A stretch of DNA of 45,990 nt from Methanomicrobiales archaeon. GTDB taxonomy: Archaea; Halobacteriota; Methanomicrobia; Methanomicrobiales; Methanospirillaceae. The DNA is taken from assembly GCA_026394765.1 (NCBI GenBank), contig JAPKXQ010000057.1:1-45990 (forward strand), written 5' to 3'. Of this stretch, positions 3,590 to 21,819 are shown piece after piece. Under the pieces are notes generated by a model. The model saw nothing but the letters and a program-made list of their open reading frames with translations, was not told the origin of the DNA and made no database searches. Within the stretch, counting starts at the first letter, position 1. Each line of letters opens with the position of its first letter. Both the position numbers and the translations under genes were made by a program.

Positions 3590-4028
3590 GCCACCGTTTC
3601 CGGGTGCGTCCCGTCACAGGCCACATCATGCCTGTTACCAGGGGGGCTCTCCTGCCAGGGATCCCATGCTTCACACGATAATCATTGATCGCCTTATGGA
3701 TCCACTCCTCTGCAAGGACAGAACAATGCATCTTTATCGTGGGGAGGCCATCCAGAACTTCAGCGACCGTCCTGTTACTGACCGCCCATGCTTCTTCAAG
3801 GGTCTTTTCCTTGACCAGATCGGTGGCCATACTGCTGGAGGCGATCGCTGCCCGGCAGTCGAATGTCTTGAATTTTGCATCGACGATGCGATTGTTCTCA
3901 ATCTTGAGGAAGATCTTCATTATATCCTCATATACGGGATTTCCGACATTGCCAAAACCGTCGGGATCTTCGATCTCCCCTAAATTTCGAGGGTTGGTGA
4001 AATGGTCCATTACCTTCTCACTATACAT
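3586..4028 (-). pseudogene. IscU/NifU N-terminal-type Fe-S scaffold, degraded (frameshift near the C-terminus; first ligand Cys region is NPVYED)
   Basis: MYSEKVMDHFTNPRNLGEIEDPDGFGNVGNP...FKTFDCRAAIASSSMATDL...LPTIKMHCSVLAEEWIHKAI; an alternate frame gives ...VACDGTHPETVA* ending in an ATGA overlap with the ThiF start. Confidence 0.75.
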
Positions 4029-4546
4029 GACAATCTTTCTCCGTGGGAGAATAGAGCAGGGACATTGCCCTCAATTTTGTGACTACCTGGGGCCATCAGC
4101 ACGTGCGAGGGCTCAAGAGAACCTGAGGTGCAGGCACTCCCGGTGGACGCACAGATCCCAACCCTATCGAGGAGATGGAGTATTGACTCTCCCTCCACGA
4201 ATTCCACACTCATGTTCACATTCCCGGGTAAATTCCGGGTTGGGTGCCTATTCAATCGCGTGTACGGGACTGAAGCGAGCACCCCGCTGATCAGAGGGTC
4301 ATCCCGGTGTCGGAGTTGGTCAGCCTCCTCATTCATGGTTCGCAGAGCACTATCGAGCGCGGTTGCCAGCCCAATGATCCCAGAAATTTTCTCTGTCCCG
4401 GCTCTCCGGTTCATTAAATAGTTTTGTCTGTTGCGATTTGACAGCCATAATGGGAAAACCTGTTTCTTAACAGATCCACGAGATCTGGTCAGAATGAACC
4501 GAGGGGGAATTCCTGTTTTCATGATGCAACTGATGATTAATTGCAT
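4010..4546 (-). pseudogene. C-terminal remnant of NifS/IscS cysteine desulfurase (N-terminal PLP half absent)
   Basis: RRAGTEKISGIIGLATAL...GNVNMSVEFVEGESILHLLDRVGICASTGSACTSGSLEPSHVLMA; no PLP-Lys region is encoded before it; the tail is degenerate. Confidence 0.8.
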
Positions 4547-4555
4547 GGTTGTAAC

Positions 4556-5590
4556 TCACACATCCCGAAACGGCGTGATGTCACACCCAGTACAGGGGAG
4601 GCACATAGTCTTCGCTAACCGGGAATCCAGGCCATAATCGGCAAGAATATCTTTTTCCATCAGTGCAAGATTGAGCAGACGATCTGCGGAGGGGCGACTG
4701 ATGACAATCTCACCGTTTCGCAGGGGTGACGCAGAGATCGGCCTGAGGATAGGGATCACTCCCAGTTCAGCAAGATGTATCACGCCGTCCCTGACACAGG
4801 TATCGGACTCCCCAAGTCCGATAATAAAATTTGAAAATACGGCGTTTTTACCGAATACGCCTACTGCCTGCTCCAGAGTATCTAGGATTAATTCAATGGA
4901 GAGGCCGGGGCAGACCCGCGTAAAGAGTTTCGGGTCCATGGTCTCGACATTGTACTTGACCTCATCAGCGCCGGCATCTGCAAGGATCTCGCTTGAGGTA
5001 TCAGTCGGATACACCGAGACCCCAATTGGGAGGTCATAATGATCCCGGAGTGTTCTCACGGTATCTGCCGTTCTCGCAACCTCCTTCTCCGGAGACTCGG
5101 CGACGCCGCTCGTGAGCGAGATCGCTCGCACTGTTCCACGGGAGTAAGAGTCATCGATCAGGTTAAGGACAGTGTCAATAGTCTTGATCTCACCGGATAA
5201 TCTTGGGACCGGGCAGAAAGTGCAGTTGTAGATACACCTTTCGCTGATGGTAATGTACGCCTGCTCCGGGCAGTGGCAGAGTGCCGGTTCAAGCTCCCCG
5301 CGGGCAATCACAGCATCATCCCGGAGCACCATGACGCCCTCCTCACTCGCCACCACCCTGATGAGTGATGTCGGGTTGATGGAGAGGCGAACACGGCGAT
5401 CGCCTGACCTGATGAAGAACGAGGAGCCGCCTGCTCCCGGACCAGCAGTTGCAGTTGTCTTGTTGGCATCTGCAAGGAGTGCCTCATCGATATGGGCACT
5501 CCCGATACTGACGAGCAGGGCCTTCTCCTCAGGGGTCAAAGATACGCCCCCTTCCCAAATTTGTTGATTTCCTGATCGAATGCAGAACAT
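4556..5590 (-). CDS. Radical SAM protein (biotin-synthase-related, COG2516-like)
   Basis: ERCIYNCTFCPVPRLSG (CxxxCxxC), VSVYPTDTSSEILADAGADEVKYNVE, FIIGLGES, C-terminal CLPCTGCDITPFRD. Confidence 0.8.
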   Translation of the reverse strand: MFCIRSGNQQIWEGGVSLTPEEKALLVSIGSAHIDEALLADANKTTATAGPGAGGSSFFIRSGDRRVRLSINPTSLIRVVASEEGVMVLRDDAVIARGELEPALCHCPEQAYITISERCIYNCTFCPVPRLSGEIKTIDTVLNLIDDSYSRGTVRAISLTSGVAESPEKEVARTADTVRTLRDHYDLPIGVSVYPTDTSSEILADAGADEVKYNVETMDPKLFTRVCPGLSIELILDTLEQAVGVFGKNAVFSNFIIGLGESDTCVRDGVIHLAELGVIPILRPISASPLRNGEIVISRPSADRLLNLALMEKDILADYGLDSRLAKTMCLPCTGCDITPFRDV

Positions 5591-5692: not shown

Positions 5693-5734
5693 ATCACAAT
5701 TGTGAACGTACATACAATAAGTAACAATTGTGAA
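5693..5734. promoter_or_regulatory. Two copies of the CACAATTGTG-type palindrome (5693-5706 ATCACAATTGTGAA; 5721-5734 GTAACAATTGTGAA), centres 28 bp apart
   Basis: Direct sequence; on the minus strand TATATA lies just upstream of the 5721-5734 copy; upstream of the radical SAM operon. Confidence 0.75.
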
Positions 5735-5902
5735 TATATACCTGTTCATCGGCACACCCGCTCACCCTTGACCGGGAACGAATCTGTGTCAGAATGATCT
5801 TATCAGGTAGAATCGCGGCGAGGGAATGGAGTAGTCCCGCGCCAGGGAGATGGTGGAAGTCATGAGCCTCGCTACAGGCCGGTCCTCATCTCTCTCCCTG
5901 TG

Positions 5903-6940
5903 TCACTGGGTTCCCGCAATACTCTCAAAGAAGACCGGCCAGAAAGGATCCTGCACCGGCATTTCCAGCTGCTCTCTTCGGCCATCGCTTCTTGTCATCC
6001 ATCTGCTCTTTGGATCATCTGTGACCCTGCCAATGACAGATGCGGGAATTCCGGCATTTTTCAAAGCGAAAATGATGCGATCTGCAGACCCCGCTCTCGC
6101 GGTGATGAGCAGGGACCCCTCCGCAATTGCTGCGACCGGGTCCAGGGCAAAATACTCGCACACCATCCTTACTTCTTCAGGATAGATGAACAACGACTCG
6201 TCTATCTCCATGCCCACACAACTGGCCTCCGCTATTTCATAGAGTCCTCCTTTGACCCCCCCCTCGGTGGCATCATGCATGGCAGTCACTCCGCCAGCCT
6301 CCATTGCAGTGAGGGCGTCACTTACAACGCTCATCTGGCTGGCAAGTCCCTGGGCTTTTTTCACCAGGTGAGGTGGGTATTTGCTGAGCAACTCTCGCTC
6401 CCTGAGCACCGAGAGGATACCTGCGGTCTCAATCGCAGGCCCCTTGGTGAGCAGCACTGAGTCCCCTGGGCAGGCCCCTGCTGGCGTGATATACTCCTCT
6501 CGCTTGGCTATGGCAAAGACGGTGATCCCTCCGATCGTCGGGGCTGCAAACCCCGGGTAGTGACCGGTATGGCCCCCAACAATGGCGATCCCTAGGTCCT
6601 TTGCTGCCTGGTGGATCGAATCTGCGACCAGAATAAAGTCTTTTTCAGAGAATTCCGGGGGCATCAGGAGGGAGTAGGTCATGTACTGGGGCCGGACTCC
6701 CATCACCGCGATGTCACTGGCCCCAATATGGACCGTATACCATCCAAACATCTCCAGGGGCTGGCCGGGTATGGCAAAGATCGGGTCCTCTGCAACCAGG
6801 AGAACCTGGCCGTTCCCAATATCAATGACACCCGCATCTATACCGGCTGCCGGGGGAACTATGACCCGCTCGTTCTCTCTTCCAAGTCTCTCCCGTATCA
6901 CTGAGGAGAAGACCTCACGGCTGATCTTTCCGATCTTCAT
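5903..6940 (-). CDS. AIR synthase-related protein (HypE/ThiL-like fold)
   Basis: VAEDPIFAIPGQPLEMFGWYTVHIGASDIAVMGVRP; IVGGHTGHYP; GVTAMHDATEGGVKGGLYEIAEAS. Confidence 0.85.
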   Translation of the reverse strand: MKIGKISREVFSSVIRERLGRENERVIVPPAAGIDAGVIDIGNGQVLLVAEDPIFAIPGQPLEMFGWYTVHIGASDIAVMGVRPQYMTYSLLMPPEFSEKDFILVADSIHQAAKDLGIAIVGGHTGHYPGFAAPTIGGITVFAIAKREEYITPAGACPGDSVLLTKGPAIETAGILSVLRERELLSKYPPHLVKKAQGLASQMSVVSDALTAMEAGGVTAMHDATEGGVKGGLYEIAEASCVGMEIDESLFIYPEEVRMVCEYFALDPVAAIAEGSLLITARAGSADRIIFALKNAGIPASVIGRVTDDPKSRWMTRSDGRREQLEMPVQDPFWPVFFESIAGTQ

Positions 6941-6946
6941 CCCGGC

Positions 6947-7543
6947 CTAACCTCTCTGATACTCCAGTGTAAGGTTGATCATCTCACTCACCACCACGAT
7001 CGGATCGCTCCCGACCAGGACTGTTACCGGCTCTTTTCCGACAGCCCCGGTCTCGTAAAAGACATTGGGCACCCGGCCCCCAGCAGCCCGGATTGCCTCC
7101 CCCACCTTCCAGGGCATGGATGCACCTTCGGCCTCCTTGATCGCTTCAGGTTCAGATCTCCGATCGATCACACTAAAGACCCACCCTTTTCTCTTGCAGT
7201 AAATCTCCAGCCATCTTGAAAGTGAGGGTGTATTCGCGAAGTTGATCCCTGCTCTGATGGTCGGGTCACGTCTCCGTATCTCAAGAAGCAGCCGTGCCAT
7301 ATGGCTCGAGGCACCGAATTTCGGGTCCCCAGATGCGTGAGGCATCCCACCGACTACCGTGACCCTCCCATCAATTGCGAGCACATCATCGGTCCTCTCT
7401 GCAGATTCCCGGGCATAGACCAGATTGGTCCTGACTTCGGGGATCATTTGCGCAAATTCCTGACACGATTCGAGCAGGTCGAGTGCAATACGCATCTTCC
7501 CGTGCATCTCGATCTGCTCATTCAGATCTCGCTCGTTTTCCAT
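6947..7543 (-). CDS. ThiN-type thiamine-phosphate synthase family protein (no HTH or ThiD fusion)
   Basis: RTNLVYARESA...DVLAIDGRVTVVGG...PKFGASSHMARLLLEIRRRDPTIRAGINFANTP...VPNVFYETGAVGKEPVTVLVGSDP. Confidence 0.75.
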   Translation of the reverse strand: MENERDLNEQIEMHGKMRIALDLLESCQEFAQMIPEVRTNLVYARESAERTDDVLAIDGRVTVVGGMPHASGDPKFGASSHMARLLLEIRRRDPTIRAGINFANTPSLSRWLEIYCKRKGWVFSVIDRRSEPEAIKEAEGASMPWKVGEAIRAAGGRVPNVFYETGAVGKEPVTVLVGSDPIVVVSEMINLTLEYQRG

Positions 7544-7676
7544 ATCGTACCACTCCTTACATTACCGGTCAGAGACTCATACCCTTTGTCCATGTTTCAT
7601 CCGGATCAAATGACTGGTCTTCAATATATTATCTGGGGGAGTCATCCGGGCAGTGGGAGTACACTCCCCAGAATAT

Positions 7677-7690
7677 TTCATAATTATGAA
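7677..7690. promoter_or_regulatory. Perfect 14-bp palindrome TTCATAATTATGAA, a symmetric variant of the island motif
   Basis: Direct sequence; differs from TTCACAATTGTGAA at one position per half-site. Confidence 0.5.
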
Positions 7691-7884
7691 TATCCTTGTA
7701 TGCAAGAGCACGTACTGGTAAAAATAACCACAATTAATACGTTTCGTTTATCGTTTCGTTTATGAGTTCCTTTTGCACGGGGGAGAAGGAATACCTGTGA
7801 TCCTCCTGGGAACTGTTCATGCTGCTGAAGTATTCCGCTCTTACCGTGACATTTATGAGCCGTCGGACATAACCTCAAGAGAAT

Positions 7885-8082
7885 TTGATGCAGGTAATTC
7901 TTCCTGACAAGTCCGTTCGCACCCTTCCAGGTGACCCTCTCCCTGTTGCGCAGATCCTCATGAGCCTGGGGATCAAGCCTTCTGGCGTGATCGTGGTCAA
8001 GAACGGCTGTTTAGTCCCCGACGATGTTCTTGCCCGCGGGGATGACCAGATCCGTTTAATCCGGATCGCACACGGGGGATAA
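7885..8082 (+). CDS. ThiS/MoaD-like small sulfur carrier (C-terminal GG)
   Basis: MQVILPDKSVRTLPGDPLPVAQILMSLGIKPSGVIVVKNGCLVPDDVLARGDDQIRLIRIAHGG; adjacent to a TtuA-type gene. Confidence 0.88.
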   Translation: MMQVILPDKSVRTLPGDPLPVAQILMSLGIKPSGVIVVKNGCLVPDDVLARGDDQIRLIRIAHGG

Positions 8083-8100
8083 ATCCCCAGATATCACGAG

Positions 8101-9024
8101 GTGGGTGTGGCCATAGAGGACAAGTGTTCCCTCTGCAATGAACCTGCGGTAATCCGCGGGAGCGAGAATGGCACACGGCTGTGCGGGAGTCACCTGGTCC
8201 TGGATCTGGAGGGCCGTGTTCAGAAGAACATTGCAGAACACTGCATGGTATCATCCGGGGATCATATCGCTCTTGCTCTTTCCGGGGGAAAGGATAGCAC
8301 TGCCCTCCTACTTTTCCTCCATCACCTCCAGCCGGCATGGCATGGCGTGAAAATTACCGCAATCACCGTCGATGAAGGTATTTCCGGATATCGCGAGGAG
8401 ACTGTAATGGCTGCGAAGAACCTGACTGAGCATCTCGGAGTCAGCCACCATATTCACTCCTTCTCCGATTATTTTGGGGATGACCTGGATACGCTTCTTA
8501 AAGGACATGAACAGAGAGCCTGCACCATCTGCGGGGTGTTGCGCAGAAGGGTACTGACCGAGGCAGCCCGGAAGATCGGGGCAACAAAACTTGCGACCGG
8601 TCACAACCGTGACGATGAGGCACAATCGGTACTGATGAATGTGCTGCGTGGCGATCTGGCCCGGCTGGTCCAGGATAGCTCATCTGGGAGCCCAGGATCT
8701 TTTCTTCCGAGAATCAAACCACTCTTAACAATCACAGAGAGAGAGGTCGTGACGTACCTCTTCGTTCGGAATTACTGTACCGATCTGCCGGAATGTCCTT
8801 ATACCGTATCAGCGCTTCGATTAGAGATTCGCGAGATGCTCGAAGAGCTAGAATCCTGGTGTCCTGGGGCCCGCGATGCGCTCATCCGGTCACGGGACGG
8901 CATGAGAAGATATGCCTCGTCCCTAGCTCGTTCCGGAGCACTGCAGGTATGCCGGGAGTGCGGAGAACCCTGCAGCGGGGAGATCTGCCAGGTATGCAAA
9001 ATACTCGCTTCACTGAGGCATTGA
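8101..9024 (+). CDS. TtuA/Ncs6/CTU1-like tRNA 2-thiouridine synthase
   Basis: CSLC...C zinc motifs, LALSGGKDSTALL PP-loop, CTICGVLRRR, LATGHNRDDEAQ, C-terminal CRECGEPCSGEICQVCK. Confidence 0.9.
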   Translation: MGVAIEDKCSLCNEPAVIRGSENGTRLCGSHLVLDLEGRVQKNIAEHCMVSSGDHIALALSGGKDSTALLLFLHHLQPAWHGVKITAITVDEGISGYREETVMAAKNLTEHLGVSHHIHSFSDYFGDDLDTLLKGHEQRACTICGVLRRRVLTEAARKIGATKLATGHNRDDEAQSVLMNVLRGDLARLVQDSSSGSPGSFLPRIKPLLTITEREVVTYLFVRNYCTDLPECPYTVSALRLEIREMLEELESWCPGARDALIRSRDGMRRYASSLARSGALQVCRECGEPCSGEICQVCKILASLRH

Positions 9025-9819
9025 TTTTTCCTGCTCTGTAGTGACATTGATCCGGTACTGGTGCGTGTATACATTCATCTTCACTCCCCGGACAAATCCA
9101 ACGATAGTTAGGCCGTTTTTATCGGCGATATCTATCGCAAGGGTTGTGGTCGCGCCGCGGGAGACGATGATGGGGATGTTGGCAATCAGGCACTTCCGCG
9201 CCATCTCAGAGGAGATGCGACCCGAAACGATGATGAATGTCTGTGAGAGATCAATTGCGTTCCTGAGTGCATGACCAATGACTCGGTCAAGTGCATTGTG
9301 TCTCCCGATGTCTTCAGACACGGTGATGATCTTATTTGCACCTGCCAGTGCGACGACATGTATGCCCCCGGTCAATTTATGTAGGTCGGAACTCAGGGTG
9401 TTTTTTATCATATCTGTGATGACCACCGTGCTTATAGAGAGGTCAGAGTGAATTTTAGGGAGCTTTTCTGCATCAATATAGGATGCACTCCCCCCGCATC
9501 CCGAGAGGATCGTCTTCTTCGGACCGATGACTTTGAAGAGGTTTTTGGTGATCACTCCGATGCGGTTTGCATCCACCTTGATCGATTCGATCTCATCAAC
9601 GCTCCTTATGACCTGCTCGGTGAAGAGAAACCCGGTGACAAAATTCTCCAGGCCCTCCGGGCTCATCATCGCGGTCATCATGTGCCGTCCGTTCACAAAG
9701 AGGGCATAGGGGATCTCTTCGATGACCTCATGGAGGATCTCTTCAGAATATTCCCCGTTGATGCGTTTACATGGTATCTTACGGTACATCACGCTCACCC
9801 CCGCTGGACTGCCACCCAT
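9010..9819 (-). CDS. fdhD: FdhD-like formate dehydrogenase accessory sulfurtransferase (start possibly 9789)
   Basis: EIPYALFVNGRHMMTAMMSPEGLENFVTGFLFTEQVI; SGCGG; VSEDIGRHNALDRVIG; SGRISSEMARKC; VSRGATTTLAIDIA. Confidence 0.9.
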   Translation of the reverse strand: MGGSPAGVSVMYRKIPCKRINGEYSEEILHEVIEEIPYALFVNGRHMMTAMMSPEGLENFVTGFLFTEQVIRSVDEIESIKVDANRIGVITKNLFKVIGPKKTILSGCGGSASYIDAEKLPKIHSDLSISTVVITDMIKNTLSSDLHKLTGGIHVVALAGANKIITVSEDIGRHNALDRVIGHALRNAIDLSQTFIIVSGRISSEMARKCLIANIPIIVSRGATTTLAIDIADKNGLTIVGFVRGVKMNVYTHQYRINVTTEQEKSMPQ

Positions 9820-9858
9820 GAGAACGCAACCACTCCCGGACTAGCTTCATACGCACTA

Positions 9859-10662
9859 TTACAACACCTCATCCATGCTCCCGCTCCGGTATCCTTCAAG
9901 GTCAAGGGCTATATATAAAAATCCCAATTTCTTGAATTCACCTACAATCTCGTTCCTCATCGCTACAACCGCGGGTATATCCTCCGGGTCCACTTCGATC
10001 CTCGCAGTATCGCAGTGCAGTCTCACCCGTACCTGGTGAAACCCTCTTGAGTGAAGATACGCTTCTGCTTCTTCGATCATATGGAGACGTTTATCAGTGA
10101 TCTCTTCTCCGTAGGGAATACGCGAGGAGAGACAAGCATCTGAGGGTTTGTCCCAGAAATCGTAACCTCGTTCCCGGGCGATCTTCCTTATATCCACTTT
10201 GGTGATGCCTGCATCGATGAAGGGATGCAAAATTCCTTCTTCGGTACTTGCGATGATGCCAGGGCGGTGTTCGTCCATATCTGAGCAGTTGACTCCATCG
10301 GCAACACTGGAGATGCCAAGTTCATGAGCCCTCCTCTTTAAGACCTGCGCATCTCTCTTCTTGCAATGATAGCAGCGATCTGGAGGATTCTCTCTGATCA
10401 CATCAGGGGGGACAGGCTGCCTGATGATCTCGAGTGAGAGGCCCAGGTCATGACTGATCCGCTGCGCTTCTCTCAATGCCGATCTCGGGACAAGTGGACT
10501 GTCAAGATAGACGCAGTGGGCTCTCTCCCCGAGAACTTCTTTTGCTACCCCTGCGAGAAGAGCGCTGTCAACCCCGCCCGAATAGGCGATGAGCATAGAC
10601 CGCCTAATGGCAATCTGGTCTTTAAGATCTGCGTACTTGCAGTCTCTTCCTTCTTTGTCCAT
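9859..10662 (-). CDS. larE: LarE family ATP-dependent sulfurtransferase (PP-loop)
   Basis: AYSGGVDSALLAGVAKEVLG; CYHCKKRDAQVLK; DKPSDACLSSRIPYGEEIT. Confidence 0.88.
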   Translation of the reverse strand: MDKEGRDCKYADLKDQIAIRRSMLIAYSGGVDSALLAGVAKEVLGERAHCVYLDSPLVPRSALREAQRISHDLGLSLEIIRQPVPPDVIRENPPDRCYHCKKRDAQVLKRRAHELGISSVADGVNCSDMDEHRPGIIASTEEGILHPFIDAGITKVDIRKIARERGYDFWDKPSDACLSSRIPYGEEITDKRLHMIEEAEAYLHSRGFHQVRVRLHCDTARIEVDPEDIPAVVAMRNEIVGEFKKLGFLYIALDLEGYRSGSMDEVL

Positions 10663-10713
10663 GAAGACGAAGATCTCTCTTTGGACGGAATATCCTCATG
10701 GGGCCGCCTAATA

Positions 10714-11043
10714 TCAGGACCCGCACCCCGTTGTTTGGGACCCGCACTGGTCCCCCTCTTCTCTCAACTGTTTGCAGATGTCACAGATACGGGCAACAAG
10801 GTTTTCTACTTTACCTTCCTTGAGGTCCTGTGCAAGGCGTTCAATCGACCGTTTTACTGTATCCTCAAACTCGATACGGTACCCGCGTTTACCTGAGATA
10901 TACTGGGATACGGCGGAAGGGGCAATCTCCAGCATTTTAGATGCTTCAACCTGGGACACCCCGCACCTAACCAGTTCGACAGCAATTGCCGCCCTGATTG
11001 CGGGCAGGACATCCCATACGATCTTCTGACAGGGTGCCTGCAT
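10714..11043 (-). CDS. Small XRE-type HTH transcriptional regulator with Cys-rich C-terminus (CX2CX9CX6C)
   Basis: GVSQVEASKMLEIAPSAVSQYISGKRG helix-turn-helix; C-terminal ICDICKQLREEGDQCGSQTTGCGS; first gene of the LarE-FdhD unit. Confidence 0.82.
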   Translation of the reverse strand: MQAPCQKIVWDVLPAIRAAIAVELVRCGVSQVEASKMLEIAPSAVSQYISGKRGYRIEFEDTVKRSIERLAQDLKEGKVENLVARICDICKQLREEGDQCGSQTTGCGS

Positions 11044-11084
11044 TCTCTCACACTCTGAGCATAACCTTCCATATTTGTATGGCT

Positions 11085-11098
11085 TTCACAATTGTGAA
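11085..11098. promoter_or_regulatory. Perfect TTCACAATTGTGAA palindrome in the HTH-LarE-FdhD promoter
   Basis: Direct sequence; TATA-like CTTATAAG at 11103-11110 immediately upstream on the minus strand. Confidence 0.8.
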
Positions 11099-11248
11099 TC
11101 AACTTATAAGCTCAAAATAGTTTGCAATCTCATCCCCCAATTTTTTGATTTTGGAACTATCTCGAACCCCCTCAAAGGATTCTAATGAAGGATTATCTGC
11201 CGCTTACAAAATCTATAAATAATCACATTTGTTATCAAATAAGGTAAG

Positions 11249-11262
11249 TTCACAATTGTGAA
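11249..11262. promoter_or_regulatory. Perfect TTCACAATTGTGAA palindrome 6 bp before tRNA-Cys
   Basis: Direct sequence; TATA-like CTATAAATAA near 11213-11222. Confidence 0.8.
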
Positions 11263-11268
11263 TATAAT

Positions 11269-11340
11269 GCCCGGGTGGCAGAGCGGCGATGCGTCAGACT
11301 GCAGATCTGATCTACATGAGTTCAATTCTCATCCCGGGCT
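11269..11340 (+). tRNA. tRNA-Cys (anticodon GCA, 11301-11303), U73
   Basis: Acceptor GCCCGGG/CCCGGGC; anticodon arm TCAGA-CTGCAGA-TCTGA; T-arm GAGTTCAATTCTC. Confidence 0.95.
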
Positions 11341-11355
11341 CTCAGGTGACACACA

Positions 11356-12720
11356 ATGGATAACAGGATAGATAACGTCTTTCGAGCCCTCTTTACACTT
11401 GAGGATCTGCGGGAGATCCACCGGAATGCGCTCCCCACTGGTCTTGATGCTGAAGAGGAGGAGCAGTACCGGCAAGTCCTGGCCCGCCTGGAAGGGATCA
11501 TCACTGACATAGAGCAGGGAAGAGCAGCAAAAGAGATCACAAAGATCGCTGGCACCATCGATGTCCGTACCCGGGAAGAGAATTTCATCAACATCCAGCC
11601 CATTCAGGCTGCTGGCAGGCTGACCCCTGAAGCACGAAAGGCGGTGATCGCATACGGAGACGGGTATTCGACCTGTGACGCCTGCCGTAAACCCTTCCGC
11701 CTCGACAAGATCTCTAGGCCTGGGATTTCCGAGTTCCACGCAGACCTTGCAAAGTTTGTAAATATGGACCAGGCCCGGGTCGTGCCCGGAGCCCGGCGCG
11801 GGTTCCAGGCAGTTGCCTCCACCCTGGTGGCCAAAGGGGACTCGGTGATAGTCTCTGCCCTGGCCCATTACACCGAGTTCTTATCTGTGGAGAATGCGGG
11901 AGGCGTGGTGAAGGAAGTCCCGTTGGACAATAGCAACATCGTCACCGCAGACGCAACCGCTCAGAAGATCGAGGAGGTCATCCGCGAGACCGGGAGGTCC
12001 CCGGTGCTGGTGATGATGGACCATTTCGACTACCAGTTTGCCAATGAGCATGATATTTCCGGGATCGGAAAAGTCGCGCACCAGTACGACATCCCGCTCC
12101 TCTACAACGGGGCATACACCGTCGGAGTGATGCCGGTTGACGGCAAGAAGATCGGGGCTGACTTTGTCGTTGGCTCAGGGCATAAGAGCATGGCATCGGT
12201 CGCGCCGTCCGGGGTGCTGGCGATGACTGATGAATGGGTTCCTTCCGCGCTCCGCACCACCGGTATGGTGGGTGATGTGACAAAGCGGAAGTTCGGCATC
12301 AAGGAGGTGGAGATGCTCGGGTGCACGCTGATGGGCGGGACTCTTCTCTCTATGATGGCATCGTTCCCGACCGTCAAAGCACGGACGCTGAGGTGGGACG
12401 ACGAATTAAAAAGGTCCAACTACTTCGTCGACCGTCTGCTGAAAATATCAGGTAGCAAAGTGCTCTCTGAGTATCCGCGCAAGCATACACTCACGAAGGT
12501 GGACACCACCATGAGTTTCGATACAGTTGCTAAGACCCATAAACGGCGTGGATTCTACTTCAGCGACGAACTGTCATCCCGTGGGATTACAGGCGAGTTT
12601 GCCGGTGCAACGAGGACCTGGAAGCTGAACACCTACGGACTCAATGGCAGGCAAATCCGGTACCTTGCTGACGCATTCACCGAGATTGCGCAAAAATACG
12701 AAATACCTGTGCAAAAGTGA
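11356..12720 (+). CDS. O-phosphoseryl-tRNA(Cys):Cys-tRNA synthase (SepCysS) with a ~70-residue N-terminal extension
   Basis: [73 protein letters not shown] (PLP Lys); MLGCTLMGG. Confidence 0.92.
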
Positions 12721-12730
12721 GGAACTCCCT

Positions 12731-14026
12731 ATGTCAGATCCAAAATTCCGTTTAGGAACTACCGCCCTTTATGCAGGGCAGGTGCCAGACCCGACAACCG
12801 GGTCACGAACAGTACCGATCTACCAGACGACTTCGTACGTGTTTAAGAACACAGAACATGCTGAAAACCTGTTTGGTCTAAAAGAACTCGGGAATATCTA
12901 CACCCGGCTTATGAACCCGACAACAGACGTCTTAGAGAAGCGCATGGCTGCAATTGAGGGAGGGACCGGTGCCATCGCAACCGCGTCGGGAGCCGCAGCC
13001 ATCACCTATGCGATCTTAAATATCACTCGACCAGGTGACGAGATCGTCTCGGCTGACAACCTGTATGGCGGCACGTACGAGTTCTTCCACTATACTCTCC
13101 CGAAGTTTGGGCGTCATGTCACCTTCGTGGACTCGTCAAGTCCCGAGGATTTCAGGAGAGCTATCACTAGTAAGACAAAGGCTGTATATGCCGAGACCAT
13201 CGGCAACCCAAAACTGGATGTCCCGGACTTTGAAAAGATTGCAAAGATAGCCCATGATGCCGGCGTGCCACTTATTGTAGATAACACGACCGGAGTCGGT
13301 CTTGTCCGCCCGATCGATTTTGGTGCGGATATCGTGGTCCATTCGGCAACCAAGTACATCGGAGGTCATGGGAACTCTCTTGGAGGCATCATTGTCGACT
13401 CAGGCAGATTCGCATGGGACAACGGTAAGTTCCCCGAGTTCACCGAGCCGGACCCGAGCTATCATGGCCTCAAATACTGGGAGACGTTCGGCAACTTCCC
13501 GGGGCTTGGTAACGTTGCATTTGTCTTTAAGATCCGTATCTCACTCATGCGAGACACTGGGGCCGTTCTCAGCCCTTTTAATGCCTGGCTCTTCCTTATC
13601 GGCCTTGAGACCCTGCACCTGCGGGTGCCTCGCCACTCAGAGAATGCCCTGGCTGTCGCGGAGTTCCTTAATACCCACCCAAAGGTTGCATGGGTGAACT
13701 ATCCCGGACTTTCTGATAACCCCAACCACGCGCTCACAAAGAGATACCTTACCGGGGGTTATGGTCCTCTTGTCGGTGTTGGCATACGTGGCGGCGAGGT
13801 GGCGAGCAGGAAGTTCATTGACAACCTCAAACTCTTCAGCAACCTCGCCAATATTGGGGACTCAAAAAGCCTCGTGATTCACCCGTCAAGCACGACCCAC
13901 CAGCAACTCACGGTCGAGGAACAGGCAAAGACCGGGGTCACACCTGACTTCGTCAGGCTCTCTATAGGCACCGAGGATATCGAGGATATATTAGATGATC
14001 TCGAACAAGCCCTAGCGGCAGTGTGA
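12731..14026 (+). CDS. metY: O-acetylhomoserine aminocarboxypropyltransferase (MetY-like)
   Basis: [69 protein letters not shown] at 12731 preferred over the track start. Confidence 0.92.
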
Positions 14027-14113
14027 TATGACTATCAATCATCATTGGATTTACAGGAATGAGAGAGGATATTTGGGGGGTCCTCGCAGAACTCAGCTGG
14101 TGGAGGAAGGTGC

Positions 14114-15610
14114 TTGTCGATGATCAAAGGTTTTGTAGGTACAGTGAAGACAGAGTACTACTTCCATCCATCCCAGCTCGAACTGGAGAGCGGGGAGACC
14201 CTTCCTTCTCTGACAATTGCCTATGAGACCTATGGTTCACTGAACCGGGACGCAAGCAATGCTATCTTACTCTGCCATGCTCTGTCAGGGGATGCCCATG
14301 TCGCGGGGCATCATGAAGGAGAGAAGAAGGCGGGCTGGTGGGACGGAGTTGTTGGTCCGGGAAAGGCGTTTGATACTGACCAGTATTTTATCATCTGCTC
14401 CAATGTTATCGGCGGGTGCAAGGGCTCAACTGGCCCTTCATCAGTCAGTCCTGTAACAGGAAGACCCTACGCCACCTCCTTTCCTGTCATCACAATAAAA
14501 GACATGGTCAATGCCCAGAAACTGCTCATTGACCACCTTGGGATCTGCCGGCTCTTCGCGGTCGCGGGCGGATCGATGGGCGGTATGCAGGTGCTCCAGT
14601 GGACTGTCACTCACCCGGATAAGGTGAAAAGAGCGGTAGTGATTGCGAGCACCGGGTATTCCACACCCCAGCAGATCGCTTTTAACGAGGTCGGACGCCG
14701 GGCAATAATCTCGGACCCCGAGTGGAATGGCGGGAACTATTATGACCGTAAGTCCTACGACTCCAGCGGTCCGGACCGGGGGCTCGCCCTCGCCCGGATG
14801 GTCGGGCACATCACCTACCTATCCAATGAGTCGATGCATGAAAAGTTTGGCAGGTCATTACAAGGCAAGGACCGGATCGGGTTTGACTTCTCCACGGATT
14901 TTGCAGTCGAGAGTTACCTTCACCACCAGGGCGACACCTTTACCAAACGGTTTGATGCCAACTCATATCTCTATATCACAAAAGCTATCGATTACTTTGA
15001 CCTGACAAAAGAGGGGTCGCTGGCCATAGGACTTGCAGGAGTAAAGGCATCATTCCTCGTCATCTCGGTCTCATCAGACTGGCTCTACCCGCCGTACCAG
15101 TCGCAGGAGGTAGTCTCGGCTCTCGCGGCAAATGACCGGGATGTTCACTATTGTGAGATCCGGTCCAACTACGGGCATGATGCCTTCCTCTTGGAATCGG
15201 GTCAGCTGAACTACCTGATAGGGAAGTTTCTTTCCCATACCGTGGTTGCGGATGTCATGATTGAGGATATCCAGCTCATCGAGGAGGGGACGACCATTGC
15301 CATTGCAGCAAGGCGGATGATTGCGACTGGTGTAAACCACCTCCCTGTTCTCTCACCCGATGAAAGACTCGTGGGAATCGTGACCTCATGGGATATTGCC
15401 AAAGCGGTGGCCTCCAATTTTTTGTGGCTGGATGAGATAATGTCACGTGACGTCATCACCACAACCCCTGATGAGCCGATTGAGGCTGCAACTAAGAAGA
15501 TGGAGGACCACCAGATATCAGCTCTTCCGGTAGTAGATGGTGATAGGCATGTCATTGGGCTTGTTACCAGTGATGCCATCACCATGCTTATCGGAAGGTG
15601 GAATGTATGA
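14114..15610 (+). CDS. metX: Homoserine O-acetyltransferase (MetX) with C-terminal CBS-domain pair
   Basis: [53 protein letters not shown]; then tandem CBS segments ([26 protein letters not shown]... [22 protein letters not shown]). Confidence 0.93.
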
Positions 15611-16048
15611 TGACCTCTCTCACCATGCAGACTGCATTGGGGATCGCAAGTGCGGCAAAGAATGCCCTCCTATGACTGGGCACGCTGGAAGTGACCAAGT
15701 TGATGCTGTCCCCTTATGCTCTCCTGACAAGCAGATTTGGTTCTCTCCAGTGCGCACTCGCTACTTTCAAAGGTCTAGAAGAATCGCTCATAGCAGCATC
15801 GATCGATCTGAAAAGAGCACTCTTTGGGTTGGTTGCAAGGAATTTATGCAACATGGATAAAGGCCATCCGTCTGCTGATCTCTCGATTATTATCTTCCCA
15901 GATTGAAGGAACCGAATGTGTATTCATGGGCCCTACTGTAAAACTCCGCTCAAGGAGACTGACATGAACCCTCAAAAACCTATTCTCAAAGACAAAACGA
16001 CAGAACAATCTGATACAGGGGGCCCGCACTCATGAGAGGCATCAAGAT

Positions 16049-17158
16049 ATGACTAAAAAATGGCTTGTCCGCTATTCGGAAATATTTTTGAAGTCCGATC
16101 CCGTCAGGCGCAGATGGGAGAACCAACTTATGGACAACATCCGGGATGTGATGCCTGATGCCAGGACCCGGAGTGAACGAGGCCGCATATGGCTGGAAGG
16201 TGACGTAGACCCCACCCTCCTGAAAAATATCTTCGGAGTGGTCTCTTTTTCCAAGGTGGATCATGTCCATCTCAAGGACCTTGAGTCCGGTCTCCTCACC
16301 TATTGCCATACCTTGGGGATGGAAAAGGCCAGGACCTTTGCCTTACGCATAAAGCGGGTCGGCTCCCATCCATTTACCTCACAGGAGAAAGCTGTCGATT
16401 GCGGCAACCTAATCCGAAAAGAGTTTTCGGCCCTCAAGGTGAACCTTGCAACTCCCGATAAGGAGATATTCATCGAGATACGGGGTGATGATTGTTACTT
16501 CTTTGATTCGGTCACAGGGGCGGTTGGCGGTCTTCCTCTTGCTGTCGAAGGAACACTGGTATCTCTTATATCCGGGGGTATTGACTCCCCTGTTGCCGCA
16601 TGGATGATGATGAAGCGGGGCTGCAGGATCGTTCCCCTCTATGTGAATCTGGAGGGTGTTCTTGATGAGAGCAATTATATCAGGGCACAACAGGTTATCG
16701 GAGCCCTGCGGTCGTATCAGCCCGACATCGCTCTCCAGGTGGTCACTGATTCCTACCTATCATCGGCATGGCAGGAACTGATGCAGTCCGGTCAGGAGCG
16801 ATATACCTGCATCTTCTGCAAGAGGAGGATGTACCGGGTTGCGGAGGCGTTCGCACGAAATGTTGGTGCTAAGGGAGTCGTCACCGGAGAATCGATCGGC
16901 CAGGTTGCCTCACAGACCCTCGATAACCTGATGGTTCTGAACGATGTGGCCCAAATACCAGTGTACCGCCCCCTCATCGGATTTGATAAGGATGAGATCA
17001 TTAGAATTGCTCGTGAGATCGGGACCTATCTTCCGTCCATCAGTAAAGCTTCCGGGTGCCGGGCTGTCCCTAAAAAGCCCTCAACGTCTGCATCCCTTAA
17101 GATGGTCAAGGGTATTGAGCAGCATATGGGCGCATCTTCGATCAGATTACCGGTATGA
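16049..17158 (+). CDS. thiI: ThiI, tRNA 4-thiouridine synthase (archaeal type, no rhodanese domain)
   Basis: N-terminal ferredoxin-like/THUMP region, LISGGIDSPVAAWMMMKRG, CIFCKRRMYRVAEAFA, GCRAVPKKPST. Confidence 0.92.
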   Translation: MTKKWLVRYSEIFLKSDPVRRRWENQLMDNIRDVMPDARTRSERGRIWLEGDVDPTLLKNIFGVVSFSKVDHVHLKDLESGLLTYCHTLGMEKARTFALRIKRVGSHPFTSQEKAVDCGNLIRKEFSALKVNLATPDKEIFIEIRGDDCYFFDSVTGAVGGLPLAVEGTLVSLISGGIDSPVAAWMMMKRGCRIVPLYVNLEGVLDESNYIRAQQVIGALRSYQPDIALQVVTDSYLSSAWQELMQSGQERYTCIFCKRRMYRVAEAFARNVGAKGVVTGESIGQVASQTLDNLMVLNDVAQIPVYRPLIGFDKDEIIRIAREIGTYLPSISKASGCRAVPKKPSTSASLKMVKGIEQHMGASSIRLPV

Positions 17159-17203
17159 TTCCCGGTAGGTATCGTGAAAAGATAACAAAAATTCAGGTGT
17201 ATC

Positions 17204-17593
17204 ATGAAAAAAACGCTGATATTGATTGTGTTTGCATGTGGTCTTGCTGGATTCCTGATTACTGCAGGGTGTACATCACCTGCAAAGGAAGAGGTATCTG
17301 GTGGTAATTCTATAAATGCGGTAAAGATCGGCGATATCCTTGAGAACCCGGATAGTTATAATGGAAGAGATGTCCTCATCAATGGCAAGGTGGTAAACCA
17401 GTGTGGTTCAGGGTGCTGGTTTTTCCTGGATGACGGCAGCGGCACTATCTATGTCGATCTGCTGCCCAATAACTTTGCTATCCCGCCGATGATAGGATCG
17501 AAGGTTACTGTTGAGGGCAGCGTTCTTGTCAACGGAACGGACGTATCGATCCTGGGCACGTCTGTTACTACCGGCCTGAAGGTATACTCGTGA
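17204..17593 (+). CDS. Predicted lipoprotein with OB-fold (nucleic-acid-binding-like) domain
   Basis: Signal with LITAGCTSP lipobox; GRDVLINGKVVNQCGSGCWFFLDDGSGTIYVDL OB-fold pattern; overlaps the permease start. Confidence 0.75.
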   Translation: MKKTLILIVFACGLAGFLITAGCTSPAKEEVSGGNSINAVKIGDILENPDSYNGRDVLINGKVVNQCGSGCWFFLDDGSGTIYVDLLPNNFAIPPMIGSKVTVEGSVLVNGTDVSILGTSVTTGLKVYS

Positions 17594-18759
17594 ATCTTCT
17601 CTCCTTTGCAGTAAAGAATCTGAAGAGAAGAAAGAGCCGCACCCTCCTTACAATGGCAGGAGTGGTGATAGCCGTAGCCGTCCTCTTCTCGCTTCTGTCT
17701 ATCAGCTCGGGATATGAGCAGCAGCTTACCCGGGAGATGGACAGCCTGGGGTTTCACCTTCTCGCCGTCCCAAAAGGGTGCCCATATGAAGCCGCATCCC
17801 TGATTATCCACGGCGGAGTATTCCCAAAATACCTGTCAGGTGAGGATCTTGCCCGGGTGAAGGCTATGGAAGGGGTAGATTTTGCAAGTCCTCTTCTCCT
17901 CCACCAGATTGTGAAGAACAGCACCCCTCATATCATCTACGGGATTGATCCCAACGACATCACTGGGCTGAAACCTTCCTGGAAGGTAAGCGGGCGATAC
18001 TTCGAATCCTGGGAGACCCGGGTCATGGTGGTAGGAAAAATCCTTGCCGAAAGAGAAGATCTTGGTGTCGGGAGTGTTCTGCCATTTGGTCCAGATCAGG
18101 AATCATTCACAATTGTAGGTGTTCTCGAACGCACCGGGGGCGAGGACGATAATTTCCATTTCATTCCGCTATCCGAGGCACAAAGAGTGTTTGGAAAAGA
18201 GAACAGGATCACCGCTATTGCTGTTCGTGTACATGATATCCGTCGAATTGCAGAGATAAGTAGAGATCTCGAGACTATCCCCGATGTTCAGGTAATAACC
18301 ATGGCCCAGGTGGCCGGTACGATCATGAATCTGGTTGGATCAGCGAGGACGCTCCTCTATACGGTTATCGTAATTGCCATATGCATCAGTGGTGGCGGGA
18401 TTATCAACTCTCTCCTCATGTCCGTGAATGAGCGAACCCGAGAGTTCGGGATGCTGAAGGCCATCGGGGCTTCAGGGCTGGATATCGGGTTCCTCGTCCT
18501 ATATGAGACCCTGATCATCACAACCCTCGGAGGGATTCTTGGAATTGTTGTCGCAGTGATCGTTTCCGGGTTTATAGAAGGATTTGTCAGGAATGCAATC
18601 CCCTACGCGCCGTCCGGCAGCCTGTTCTCTTTTGAACCGGCATTAGTGCTTATCGCCCTCGTCTTTTCAATAGTTCTCGGGCTAATCTGCGGGATATACC
18701 CGGCCATCAGGTCTGGCCGGCTCTCTCCGATGGAGACAATCCGGGAGGGTTTTTTATGA
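17590..18759 (+). CDS. MacB/FtsX-type ABC transporter permease
   Basis: LSFAVKNLKRRKSRTLLTMAGVVIAVAVLFSLLSISSGYE; SVNERTREFGMLKAIGA; C-terminal YPAIRSGRLSPMETIREG. Confidence 0.9.
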   Translation: MNLLSFAVKNLKRRKSRTLLTMAGVVIAVAVLFSLLSISSGYEQQLTREMDSLGFHLLAVPKGCPYEAASLIIHGGVFPKYLSGEDLARVKAMEGVDFASPLLLHQIVKNSTPHIIYGIDPNDITGLKPSWKVSGRYFESWETRVMVVGKILAEREDLGVGSVLPFGPDQESFTIVGVLERTGGEDDNFHFIPLSEAQRVFGKENRITAIAVRVHDIRRIAEISRDLETIPDVQVITMAQVAGTIMNLVGSARTLLYTVIVIAICISGGGIINSLLMSVNERTREFGMLKAIGASGLDIGFLVLYETLIITTLGGILGIVVAVIVSGFIEGFVRNAIPYAPSGSLFSFEPALVLIALVFSIVLGLICGIYPAIRSGRLSPMETIREGFL

Positions 18760-19445
18760 GTGTGATTGAAGCGACCGAGATCACCAAGGTATACAAACGC
18801 GGGAGGGAGGAGGTCCATGCAATCAGGGGGGTAAGTTTATCAATCGATTCTTCAGAGTTCGTGGCAATTGTTGGTCCTTCCGGTGCCGGAAAGACAGCCC
18901 TCATGAATATAATTGGGTGTCTTGATACCCCGACCAATGGGACTCTCACCATCGATGGTATCAGGGTAACCGGGAGGACCGAGCGCGAGCTTGTCAGGAT
19001 GCGGCGCGGGACCATAGGATTTGTCTTCCAGCAGTTCTTCCTAATTCCGACGCTGACTGCCAGGGAAAATATCGGCCTTCCCCTGATCTTCAATCGCAGG
19101 AAGGCTGATGACTGGAAGATCGACGATATTCTCGACCAGGTAGGGCTGTCAGATCGAGCATCTCATTATCCTCACGAACTCAGCGGGGGGGAGATGCAGC
19201 GGGTTGCCATCGGCCGGGCGCTCGTCACCAGGCCAAAAATTCTCCTTGCCGATGAACCCACCGGAAATCTCGATACCGGGAATTCCGATCTGATATTTCA
19301 TCTCCTCCAGGGACTCAACCGGGAAGGGCTCACCATCCTGATGGTCACCCACAATCCCGGACTTGCCAGAAGAGCGGGAAGGGTTGTAAGTCTGAAAGAT
19401 GGATTGATCGAGCACGATATGCCACCACCAGGGTGTCCTATTTGA
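18756..19445 (+). CDS. MacB/LolD-type ABC transporter ATP-binding protein
   Basis: Walker [30 protein letters not shown]; 4-nt overlap with permease. Confidence 0.93.
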
Positions 19446-19524
19446 TCCCTTAAAGTGCCAGGGGTGCCCTGTCATGAGTAAAAAGATCTTCAGCCGAAAG
19501 GGCTGAATGAAGGAGCATACTTCT

Positions 19525-19809
19525 CTAGGGTTTTTTCCTTCCTTTCTTCCTGATCATATCAGCTTCTTCTGCAGACTGGACCTTAAGGATGAAGGTACCA
19601 TAACAGGGCTTGGTGTAGGGGAGGATTACGACCGGGCCGTCCAGACCGATTGCGATGGGTGGAACACCGATCAGGCATTTATCAAAGATCTTGAACCCTG
19701 GGTTCACATAGAACACTTCACTGCAGTGTTCTTCGATGAATGCCCTGCATTCAGCAAAAGAGACCCCTGATTTGAGCACCTCGTACCCTAGGTCTTCGAC
19801 ACAGCCCAT
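19525..19809 (-). CDS. DUF1894-like methanogen protein
   Basis: MGCVEDLGYEVLKSGVSFAECRAFIEEHCSEVFYVNPGFKIFDKCLIGVPPIAIGLDGPVVILPYTKPCYGTF; overlaps the DUF1890-like gene. Confidence 0.6.
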   Translation of the reverse strand: MGCVEDLGYEVLKSGVSFAECRAFIEEHCSEVFYVNPGFKIFDKCLIGVPPIAIGLDGPVVILPYTKPCYGTFILKVQSAEEADMIRKKGRKKP

Positions 19810-20261
19810 CCCATCACCTCGTCCAGTTTCTTCCTGAGTTGTCCCGGGTTGTGCACGGCCTTCTCTACGATTTTTTCACAGGGAATATCCAGCTGTGCAC
19901 CAAGAGCTTCGGCCTCTCTCCCAAACACAACCGCGATCAGTCTCCCCTCAGTTAGATAGCGAATAGTGGTAGCGTATGAGATCCCTGCATCACTATGTGC
20001 AAATACGATACATACCTCGGGCTCGAGTTTTTTGGTCGAGAGGTCTTCGATACACCGGTCGAGATCCATCATCTTCTTGACATAGACTTTGCCAGGGTCA
20101 GATACCCTGAGTAGTTGCAGGACTGCGGTGTTTCCTGCTATCCGCAACTCTCTCCCATGCTCCCCGAACCGGTGGGCAGAGTAGAGCGCAAGCGCCTGCT
20201 GAACCGGCACCTCAGGACAACCGAGGATCAATAATGGTCCGGAATTTTCGTTGTCATGCAT
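19788..20261 (-). CDS. DUF1890-like methanogen protein
   Basis: MHDNENSGPLLILGCPEVPVQQALALY...; the listed longer ORF reads through the tRNA gene, so ATG 20261 is used. Confidence 0.6.
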   Translation of the reverse strand: MHDNENSGPLLILGCPEVPVQQALALYSAHRFGEHGRELRIAGNTAVLQLLRVSDPGKVYVKKMMDLDRCIEDLSTKKLEPEVCIVFAHSDAGISYATTIRYLTEGRLIAVVFGREAEALGAQLDIPCEKIVEKAVHNPGQLRKKLDEVMGWAVSKT

Positions 20262-20274
20262 AGCGATCTCACAG

Positions 20275-20346
20275 AGCCAGGGTCCGGATTTGAACCGGAG
20301 TGTAGCTGATCTGCAGTCAGCCGCGTGGCCGCTCCGCCACCCTGGC
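20275..20346 (-). tRNA. tRNA-Cys (anticodon GCA), second isoacceptor, U73
   Basis: Reverse complement GCCAGGG...GCTGA-CTGCAGA-TCAGC...CCGGTTCAAATCCGG...CCCTGGCT. Confidence 0.95.
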
Positions 20347-20349
20347 AGG

Positions 20350-20376
20350 TTCACAACTGTGGTTCACAATTGTGAA
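20350..20376. promoter_or_regulatory. Tandem palindromes upstream of tRNA-Cys: degenerate TTCACAACTGTGGT (20350-20363) and perfect TTCACAATTGTGAA (20363-20376)
   Basis: Direct sequence; TATA-like TTTTTATAGATT (minus strand) around 20393-20404. Confidence 0.8.
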
Positions 20377-20565
20377 TTAATCGTGGGTCGATAATCTATA
20401 AAAACATATTCTTTGAGGTGTGCACAAAAGAACAATATCTCCCCATAAGAGCAGAGTGCAGGTCAGGTCAGATCAATGGTACCAGTACCGAAGTGGTATC
20501 TTGGAAGAATGTATTCACACTCATCTCTCGCATTTGAAATAACCATTAAGTTGATAGATTTAAAA

Positions 20566-20579
20566 ATAACAATTGTGAA
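20566..20579. promoter_or_regulatory. Island palindrome variant ATAACAATTGTGAA upstream of the SufS-like/CysK unit
   Basis: Direct sequence; adjacent to AT-rich TATA-like GATTTAAAAATAA; lies inside the over-extended ORF 20476-21819. Confidence 0.7.
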
Positions 20580-20652: not shown

Positions 20653-21819
20653 ATGTATGATGTTGAAAAGTTGCGCCAGCAGTTTCCGATACTCTCAAAG
20701 TGTATCTATCTTGACAGCGCCTCGACAAGCCAGACCCCCCGGTGCTCTGTCGATGCCATGTGTGAATATTTCTTCGAATATGCGGCGAATCACGGAAGAG
20801 GCGCCCATCACCTCGCGCGGAAGACGACTGAGAAGTACGAAGAGACCAGGTCACGACTGGGAGATTTTCTCAAGGTCCCAGCTGATCAGATCATATTCAC
20901 AAAGAATACCACAGATGCAGTGAATACGGTTGCAAACGGAACTTTGTGGAAACGAGGCGACGAAATAATTACTACATGGTTGGAGCACCATTCGAATCTT
21001 CTTCCCTGGATGATGCTGAAGAGAAAAGGTGTCCGTGTCACGATAATCCCGCATGAGAATGGATATCTCAATCCCCATACCCTCCAGGAGGCAATCTCAC
21101 ATAAGACGAGATTGATCGCCCTCACTCACATGCCTAATATTCTAGGGACGGTCCAACCGGTGGAGGAGATAGGTCGCATCGCTCACGATGCTGGGGTTTC
21201 TGTTGTCGTAGATGGGGCTCAATCCGTGGGGCATTTCCCAGTTGACGTAACCTACATCGATTACCTTGCAATTCCCGGGCATAAAGGACTTCTAGGGCCC
21301 CAGGGCACAGGGGCACTCTATATGAAAGATCCAGATTCCTTGAACTGTTCGATCTTTGGGGGAGGAATGGTGGTATCTGTCACTCATAAAGTAGTGAAAC
21401 TACTCCCCCCTCCTGCAAAATTTGAACCCGGTACTCCCAATATCCCGGGTATTATCGGACTTGGACCAGCAATTGACCTCGTCAGTTCACTTGGTGTCAA
21501 AAAGATCCATGCATATGAGAAGAATCTAGGCTCGCGAATGTTCGAGGGACTGGAAAAGATCCCAGGTGTGAGCGTCTATAGTCCGCATGGAACCGGGGTG
21601 GTGTCATTTAATGTCGCCGGGGAGAACCCCAATGTATTCTCCAGGAAGCTTGACGATCACCGGAAGATCTGTGTGAGGAGCGGCATGCACTGCGCAGAAC
21701 CACTGGCGAGCAGCTATCACTGCGAAGGGACGATTCGGGCATCAGTTGGTTGCTATACCACAACCGAAGAGGTCGATGCCCTGATCGAGAGTGTCCGGCA
21801 TCTGACCGGGAAAATATAG
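20653..21819 (+). CDS. SufS-like cysteine desulfurase family protein
   Basis: IYLDSASTSQTP; FTKNTTDAVN; VDGAQSVGHFPVD; IPGHKGLLGPQGTGALY (PLP Lys); FEPGTPNIPGI; RSGMHCAEPL. Confidence 0.88.
   Translation: MYDVEKLRQQFPILSKCIYLDSASTSQTPRCSVDAMCEYFFEYAANHGRGAHHLARKTTEKYEETRSRLGDFLKVPADQIIFTKNTTDAVNTVANGTLWKRGDEIITTWLEHHSNLLPWMMLKRKGVRVTIIPHENGYLNPHTLQEAISHKTRLIALTHMPNILGTVQPVEEIGRIAHDAGVSVVVDGAQSVGHFPVDVTYIDYLAIPGHKGLLGPQGTGALYMKDPDSLNCSIFGGGMVVSVTHKVVKLLPPPAKFEPGTPNIPGIIGLGPAIDLVSSLGVKKIHAYEKNLGSRMFEGLEKIPGVSVYSPHGTGVVSFNVAGENPNVFSRKLDDHRKICVRSGMHCAEPLASSYHCEGTIRASVGCYTTTEEVDALIESVRHLTGKI

Follow-up and report, generated by a model that had tools for sequence, protein, structure and literature searches.

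The DNA analysed here, called the window below, is a stretch of 45,990 nucleotides from a Methanomicrobiales archaeon (assembly GCA_026394765.1, contig JAPKXQ010000057.1) that carries an island of genes for sulfur and cysteine metabolism. Our subject is a symmetric sequence of 14 bp with the consensus TTCACAATTGTGAA and the small helix–turn–helix (HTH) protein encoded at 10714–11043 within the same island. Judging from the sequence, it is very likely that TTCACAATTGTGAA is the operator of a cysteine/iron–sulfur (Fe–S) regulon which is controlled by this HTH protein. A first-pass annotation of the window had listed eight copies of the palindrome, and all of them are present as written there. 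These copies and the gene of the candidate regulator are as follows.

5693–5706: operator with one mismatch, downstream member of a tandem pair with a spacing of 28 bp
5721–5734: operator with two mismatches, in tandem with the copy at 5693 and directly behind TATATA on the minus strand
7677–7690: degenerate symmetric variant with two mismatches, upstream of the ThiN–AIRS gene pair
10714–11043, minus strand: candidate regulator, an XRE-like HTH protein of 109 amino acids with a sub-threshold HTH_3 match and a perfect operator in its own promoter
11085–11098: perfect operator, placed 41 bp ahead of the start codon of the HTH gene, with TTATAAG just upstream of the operator
11249–11262: perfect operator, 6 bp 5′ of a tRNA-Cys gene, leading tRNA-Cys and SepCysS
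20350–20363: half-degenerate second operator copy with three mismatches, 13 bp from the perfect copy at 20363
20363–20376: perfect operator, upstream of the second tRNA-Cys gene, leading this tRNA-Cys and DUF1890/DUF1894
20566–20579: operator with two mismatches, 73 bp before the start codon of the SufS-like gene, abutting a TTTAAAAATA stretch

With up to three mismatches to TTCACAATTGTGAA allowed, 12 matches are found in the window, as compared to a mean of 1.79 and a maximum of 5 in dinucleotide shuffles. The four matches that had not been listed before (15144, 18106, 41476, and 42570) all lie within long open reading frames (ORFs) and look like chance occurrences. The perfect copy at 11085–11098 is probably the autoregulatory site of the HTH gene. 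The variant at 7677 is probably a weak site, the weakest of the copies; upstream of the orthologous ThiN–AIRS pair in relatives (loci L080, L206, and L098) perfect copies are found. The genes behind the copies are given below.

4556–5590, minus strand: radical-SAM gene (PF04055) behind the tandem pair 5693/5721; its orthologues also have sites upstream
5903–6940, minus strand: AIRS-family protein (SelD/ThiL/HypE-like; PF02769 and PF00586), second gene behind the 7677 site
6947–7543, minus strand: ThiN-domain protein (PF10120), first gene behind the 7677 site
11269–11341, plus strand: tRNA-Cys (GCA), found with ARAGORN
11356–12720, plus strand: SepCysS, O-phospho-L-seryl-tRNA:Cys-tRNA synthase (TIGR02539, over the cut-off)
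12644–14026, plus strand: MetY-like O-acetylhomoserine sulfhydrylase, named by eye; the true start is probably internal, and the gene order is the same in relatives
14114–15610, plus strand: MetX-like acyltransferase carrying CBS domains, located behind metY and named by eye from sequence
19525–19809, minus strand: DUF1894 gene (PF08979) behind DUF1890
19788–20261, minus strand: DUF1890 gene (PF09001, E 2.8e-49) behind tRNA-Cys, start codon inferred
20274–20346, minus strand: second tRNA-Cys (GCA), found with ARAGORN
20653–21819, plus strand: SufS-like cysteine desulfurase (best NCBIfam match TIGR01979, below its cut-off), start codon inferred
21827–22756, plus strand: CysK-like gene, named by eye from sequence

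The MetY-like gene probably belongs to the operon behind SepCysS, and the CysK-like gene is probably in an operon with SufS. For metY, metX, thiI, NcsA, FdhD, LarE, and CysK of the window the best match within 200 bp upstream has at least five mismatches. The earlier statement that the palindrome marks most promoters of the island was thus slightly generous, as it holds for the sites listed above and not for these genes. Several of the island genes devoid of a site probably sit in operons led by a regulated promoter.

Pattern searches were extended to the draft genome, which comprises 1.83 Mb and is about 79% complete. Allowing up to two mismatches, TTCACAATTGTGAA occurs at 17 places, the reversed pattern used as control at one. 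The four perfect and three one-mismatch places are all intergenic and located upstream of sulfur or Fe–S genes (7/7), in agreement with the rarity elsewhere in the genome that a regulon would show; the hits on contigs C8, C13, C81, and C96 are regarded as chance occurrences. Four of these seven places are in the window and three on contig C9, where a second island is found with the following sites.

C9, 7253: upstream of iscS-iscU-hesA
C9, 10273: upstream of nadA, coding for quinolinate synthase, a 4Fe–4S enzyme
C9, 12142 and 12156: tandem sites, the latter with two mismatches, upstream of cysK

At 2824–4546 the window contains a second, decayed version of the iscS-iscU-hesA cluster that is present on contig C9, with an iscS fragment at 4010–4546 and frame-disrupted iscU/hesA at 3207–4028. 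A further short sequence is common to both islands (window 254–589 and L016 1445–1560; it encodes NRG.I.GYETRSVSYQE) and is possibly a repeat element or an assembly duplication.

The search was also carried out in 2.14 Mb of mostly selected related loci. In these loci 105 distinct perfect sites are present, and 12 permuted palindromes of equal composition have no copy at all. When sites with up to one mismatch are considered, 199 of the 204 distinct sites in the loci chosen by motif or by HTH gene are followed by a listed gene start at no more than 260 bp, and not one of the 204 falls within a named gene; gene starts were projected by homology, as over-extended ORF starts had put some sites inside genes. 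An equal frequency in coding DNA, which would have spoken against a regulatory role, is hence not observed. The commonest targets are the genes of the HTH protein, tRNA-Cys, IscS, SepCysS, NadA, a HesA/ThiF-like protein, and CysK, followed by the radical-SAM gene, a small winged-helix gene, and PdxS. Conservation upstream of orthologous sulfur genes is found across six family groups of Methanomicrobiales and in the Methanosarcinaceae. A Methanosarcina genome (about 3.6 Mb) has only three places with up to one mismatch, all in a single tRNA-Cys / iscS / HTH / cysK locus. The genome-wide results for this Methanosarcina genome and for the draft genome (7/7) agree with the target counts from the selected loci. 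As the sites are conserved upstream of orthologues and scarce elsewhere, we speak of a regulon; it is a conserved and probably autoregulated regulon of Methanomicrobiales and Methanosarcinaceae which includes the tRNA-Cys genes.

A chance occurrence, a compositional artefact or a non-regulatory repeat should also be considered, given that the palindrome was first listed by visual inspection of a single window. However, the reversed pattern gives zero to two control matches per genome, the permuted palindromes are absent and the sites are placed at promoters, so that we give hardly any credence to this explanation.

According to a published study, the iscSU2 genes of M. acetivorans are clustered with genes for methionine and NAD biosynthesis (PMC7585200). 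The gene order in L236 and L239, which are taken as Methanosarcina relatives, matches the iscSU2 cluster as described there, and a search of the paper for regulator terms turned up a general mention only. Among the further targets, sites precede pdxS, the gene of a pyridoxal phosphate (PLP) synthase, in L088 (1560), L089 (9862), L161 (6566), and L153 (1070). PLP is the cofactor of SepCysS, IscS, and CysK. At L096 13699/13723 and L101 12742/12765 tandem sites are found in front of a gene for a stand-alone archaeal ThrRS editing domain (PF08915 for L096, by eye for L101), which hints at tRNA editing in connection with sulfur metabolism. At L016 3478–6102 an 874-amino-acid fusion of a phosphoadenosine phosphosulfate (PAPS) reductase-like domain and a SufS-like cysteine desulfurase is encoded, and orthologues in relatives have sites upstream. 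In L244 a perfect site (8109) is situated between an adenosine phosphosulfate (APS)/PAPS reductase-like gene and a gene which by eye resembles DUF39 homocysteine-synthesis genes.

The first-pass annotation had proposed a single-factor regulon for cysteine supply and sulfur transfer. The single factor is supported and a candidate, the HTH protein, can now be named; the scope was too narrow, because the regulon also takes in NadA, PdxS, the radical-SAM gene, ThiN–AIRS, and DUF1890/1894 and is thus wider than cysteine supply. The sites suggest that DUF1890/DUF1894, the radical-SAM gene, the ThiN–AIRS pair, and the PAPS-reductase–SufS fusion may work in sulfur metabolism.

The link between operator and HTH gene was examined in 80 loci retrieved by the HTH profile alone, that is, with the motif not used in selection. 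In 66 of them a site with up to two mismatches is located no more than 150 bp upstream of the HTH gene, as compared to 0.18 in shuffles, and these sites mostly end 45–48 bp from the start codon. Among 150 Methanomicrobiales genomes the perfect motif is found in 37, and a close HTH gene in 35 of these 37 as compared to 36 of the 113 motif-free genomes (p = 4e-12, although these co-occurrence counts ignore phylogenetic relatedness and the p-values overstate independence). A sample from the phylum (197 genomes) contains 18 genomes with the motif, all of which have the HTH gene, and 110 genomes that lack the HTH gene, none of which has the motif. Direct observations are thus the existence and conservation of the site, where it is placed, its confinement to these genes on the scale of the genome, and the fact that it co-occurs with the HTH gene.

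Another factor might read the site, for example the small winged-helix protein, with the HTH gene being merely one more target. Nine distinct sites precede such winged-helix genes, but these are targets in some lineages only, whereas the pairing of HTH gene and site is found in nearly all motif-bearing genomes. In addition, a paralogue of the HTH protein (37–48% identity, with a similar cysteine pattern) has TTAACAATTGTTAA, a variant of the palindrome, upstream of its gene in L123, L124, L125, and L127, and a form close to it in L128; this would be expected of an HTH lineage that reads the AACAATTGTT core. A different reader of the site is therefore very unlikely in our opinion. A more distant HTH paralogue, present in most Methanomicrobiales genomes (L120, L121, L122, L126, L136, and L139), is preceded by a small winged-helix coding sequence, and a similar winged-helix gene is an operator target elsewhere (L085 5399, L089 12454, and L098 15068).

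Placement at the promoters gives a hint how the operator might act. A site is present within 75 bp in 32 of 44 distinct tRNA-Cys promoters and in none of 18 other tRNA promoters from the same loci, typically 7–12 bp before the tRNA. In relatives, the start of the TATA-like hexamer precedes the operator by about 33–37 bp at tRNA-Cys and by about 18–23 bp at the HTH gene. The usual archaeal distance from TATA to start is roughly 25 bp, and the operator would therefore be at or just past the transcription start. The earlier claim of a TATA-like element just upstream of each promoter copy apart from the variant at 7677 is broadly right, with a distance that varies by target class. As the operator is mostly downstream of TATA and near the inferred start, repression is likely, as had been suggested before; this is true for tRNA-Cys and the HTH gene, whereas the nadA promoter of this genome, with a clear TATATA (GTGAATATATACACC) downstream of the site, fits poorly.

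The nadA promoter would be easier to understand if the HTH protein were an activator that turns the genes on under sulfur limitation rather than repressing them under plenty. Tandem sites, which recur at several spacings, most often 27–28 bp (including 5693/5721), also speak for this. On the other hand, a site downstream of TATA near the inferred start at tRNA-Cys and the HTH gene is in a polymerase-blocking position, and conserved autoregulation from a start-proximal position fits negative feedback. We consider an activator unlikely and favour repression. A role of the palindrome as RNA hairpin was set aside by argument, as a perfect 14 bp palindrome has no loop and protein genes, too, have sites upstream, at distances that vary.

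In the favoured mechanism a dimer of the HTH protein would occupy the symmetric site, which lies between TATA box and gene or tRNA start, and would block the polymerase, also at its own promoter. Upon shortage of sulfur, cysteine or Fe–S clusters the cysteines C5, C87, C90, and C100, which could ligate a cluster or metal or act as thiols, would change state and the protein would release the DNA. Then tRNA-Cys, SepCysS, cysteine desulfurases, IscU, CysK, and Fe–S- or PLP-dependent enzymes could be made together. Binding by the HTH protein, its dimerisation, and repression are what we infer from site symmetry, placement, and gene pairing. A cluster or metal as signal is the least certain element of this mechanism, and we put it forward tentatively, at slightly below an even chance.

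The presence of tRNA-Cys genes in the regulon would make sense, as cysteine is made on the tRNA in these methanogens. Two tRNA-Cys genes were detected in the draft genome, both within the window, each with a perfect operator a few bases upstream. The gene of SepRS was detected in the draft genome, and for CysRS there is no match over the family cut-off in this incomplete draft. Should CysRS indeed be absent, Cys-tRNA would come from tRNA-dependent synthesis.

The properties of the HTH protein bear on the nature of the signal. With Pfam HTH_3 (PF01381) it scores 21.4 bits at a cut-off of 23 (residues 26–53), and no NCBIfam model is matched. The AlphaFold model has five helices with the HTH and a confident core (mean pLDDT 78.6) and is poor at both ends; in this model and in the Pfam scan no ligand-binding domain besides the HTH is seen. 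The best PDB match by sequence is a lambda-repressor-like protein (E 0.02). A fold search of the PDB with the model returned nothing at E <= 0.001, thus no sensor mechanism can be transferred from a structural relative. Four near-invariant cysteines flank the HTH: in an alignment of 53 orthologues C87 and C90 are invariant, and C5 and C100 are conserved to at least 90%.

With the same regulon and regulator, the signal could instead be a small molecule (cysteine, O-acetyl- or phosphoserine, sulfide) or the thiol redox state, and the cysteines would then hold a structural zinc. Consistent with this, the cysteine pattern is also present in paralogues with different surroundings, and genes for cysteine, methionine, and tRNA-Cys are among the targets as much as Fe–S genes. 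However, a ligand-binding domain beyond the HTH was not detected in the 109-amino-acid protein, and the targets include Fe–S assembly (iscS-iscU) and the Fe–S enzyme NadA. We regard such a signal as possible, somewhat short of evenly probable.

Several observations speak against the proposed regulon and its sensing by cysteines. No operator site is found in this draft at the promoter of SepRS, which catalyses the first step of the pathway. Many genomes with a diverged HTH protein (g25 group, roughly 47–57% identity) do not have the perfect motif, and the motif-bearing genomes G121 and G051 do not have a close HTH gene, G051 having a type-B paralogue. The target counts come from loci chosen by motif or HTH, with four target names added after inspection. 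The C-terminal tail that bears C100 is poorly modelled. A similar cysteine pattern is kept in HTH paralogues with other or unknown targets and surroundings, and the cysteines might therefore bind a structural metal instead of serving as a sensor.

To our knowledge, the control of sulfur assimilation and Fe–S assembly in methanogens is largely unknown, despite their heavy dependence on Fe–S proteins. In the open-access literature no description of this regulator was found, and operator and HTH regulator together point to a previously undescribed sulfur control switch. A candidate regulator, an operator, and a target list are now available in lineages that include Methanosarcina, where gene deletion is possible. 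Moreover, a single tRNA species under a dedicated operator is an unusual case, which could be explained by the tRNA being the scaffold for cysteine synthesis.

When compared to known systems, the archaeal redox and sulfur regulators SurR and MsvR differ from the HTH system in folds, operators, and targets. Cysteine-based sensing in anaerobic archaea would be the common trait, a likeness that for the HTH protein is inferred; for MsvR, DNA binding modulated by cysteines is reported (PMC3729527). The HTH protein carries no ThiN domain (Pfam) and is thus not ThiR; in the window ThiN is a separate gene and itself a probable target. ThiR is a small, possibly similar archaeal HTH protein fused to a C-terminal ThiN domain and controls vitamin genes. 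The bacterial regulators CymR, CmbR, and CysB may be seen as analogous in that one factor coordinates genes for cysteine, methionine, and sulfur supply. Their operators and targets are different from those of the HTH regulon, and the HTH protein has no matched LysR-type or Rrf2-type domain and no separate ligand domain.

The closest analogy might be with IscR and SufR, the bacterial Fe–S-sensing repressors of isc and suf operons, with which the HTH protein would share the connection of a repressor to Fe–S assembly genes, possible ligating cysteines, and autoregulation. IscR belongs to the Rrf2 family and has an Rrf2 domain with three clustered cysteines; for the HTH protein neither Pfam nor NCBIfam gives an Rrf2 match. 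With regard to SufR there is likewise no NCBIfam match, and in Pfam only the sub-threshold HTH_3. On these results the HTH protein belongs to neither of the two families. In contrast to both systems, the HTH regulon includes tRNA-Cys genes and tRNA-dependent cysteine synthesis and uses archaeal TATA-type promoters. It is conceivable, although we would count on it rather less than on its opposite, that the cell treats tRNA-Cys, on which cysteine is synthesised, as a biosynthetic carrier and controls its transcription along with that of the pathway enzymes; the HTH protein would then represent a new class of archaeal sulfur/Fe–S sensor, a small cysteine-ligated HTH repressor which is unrelated to IscR and SufR and represses the tRNA gene itself.

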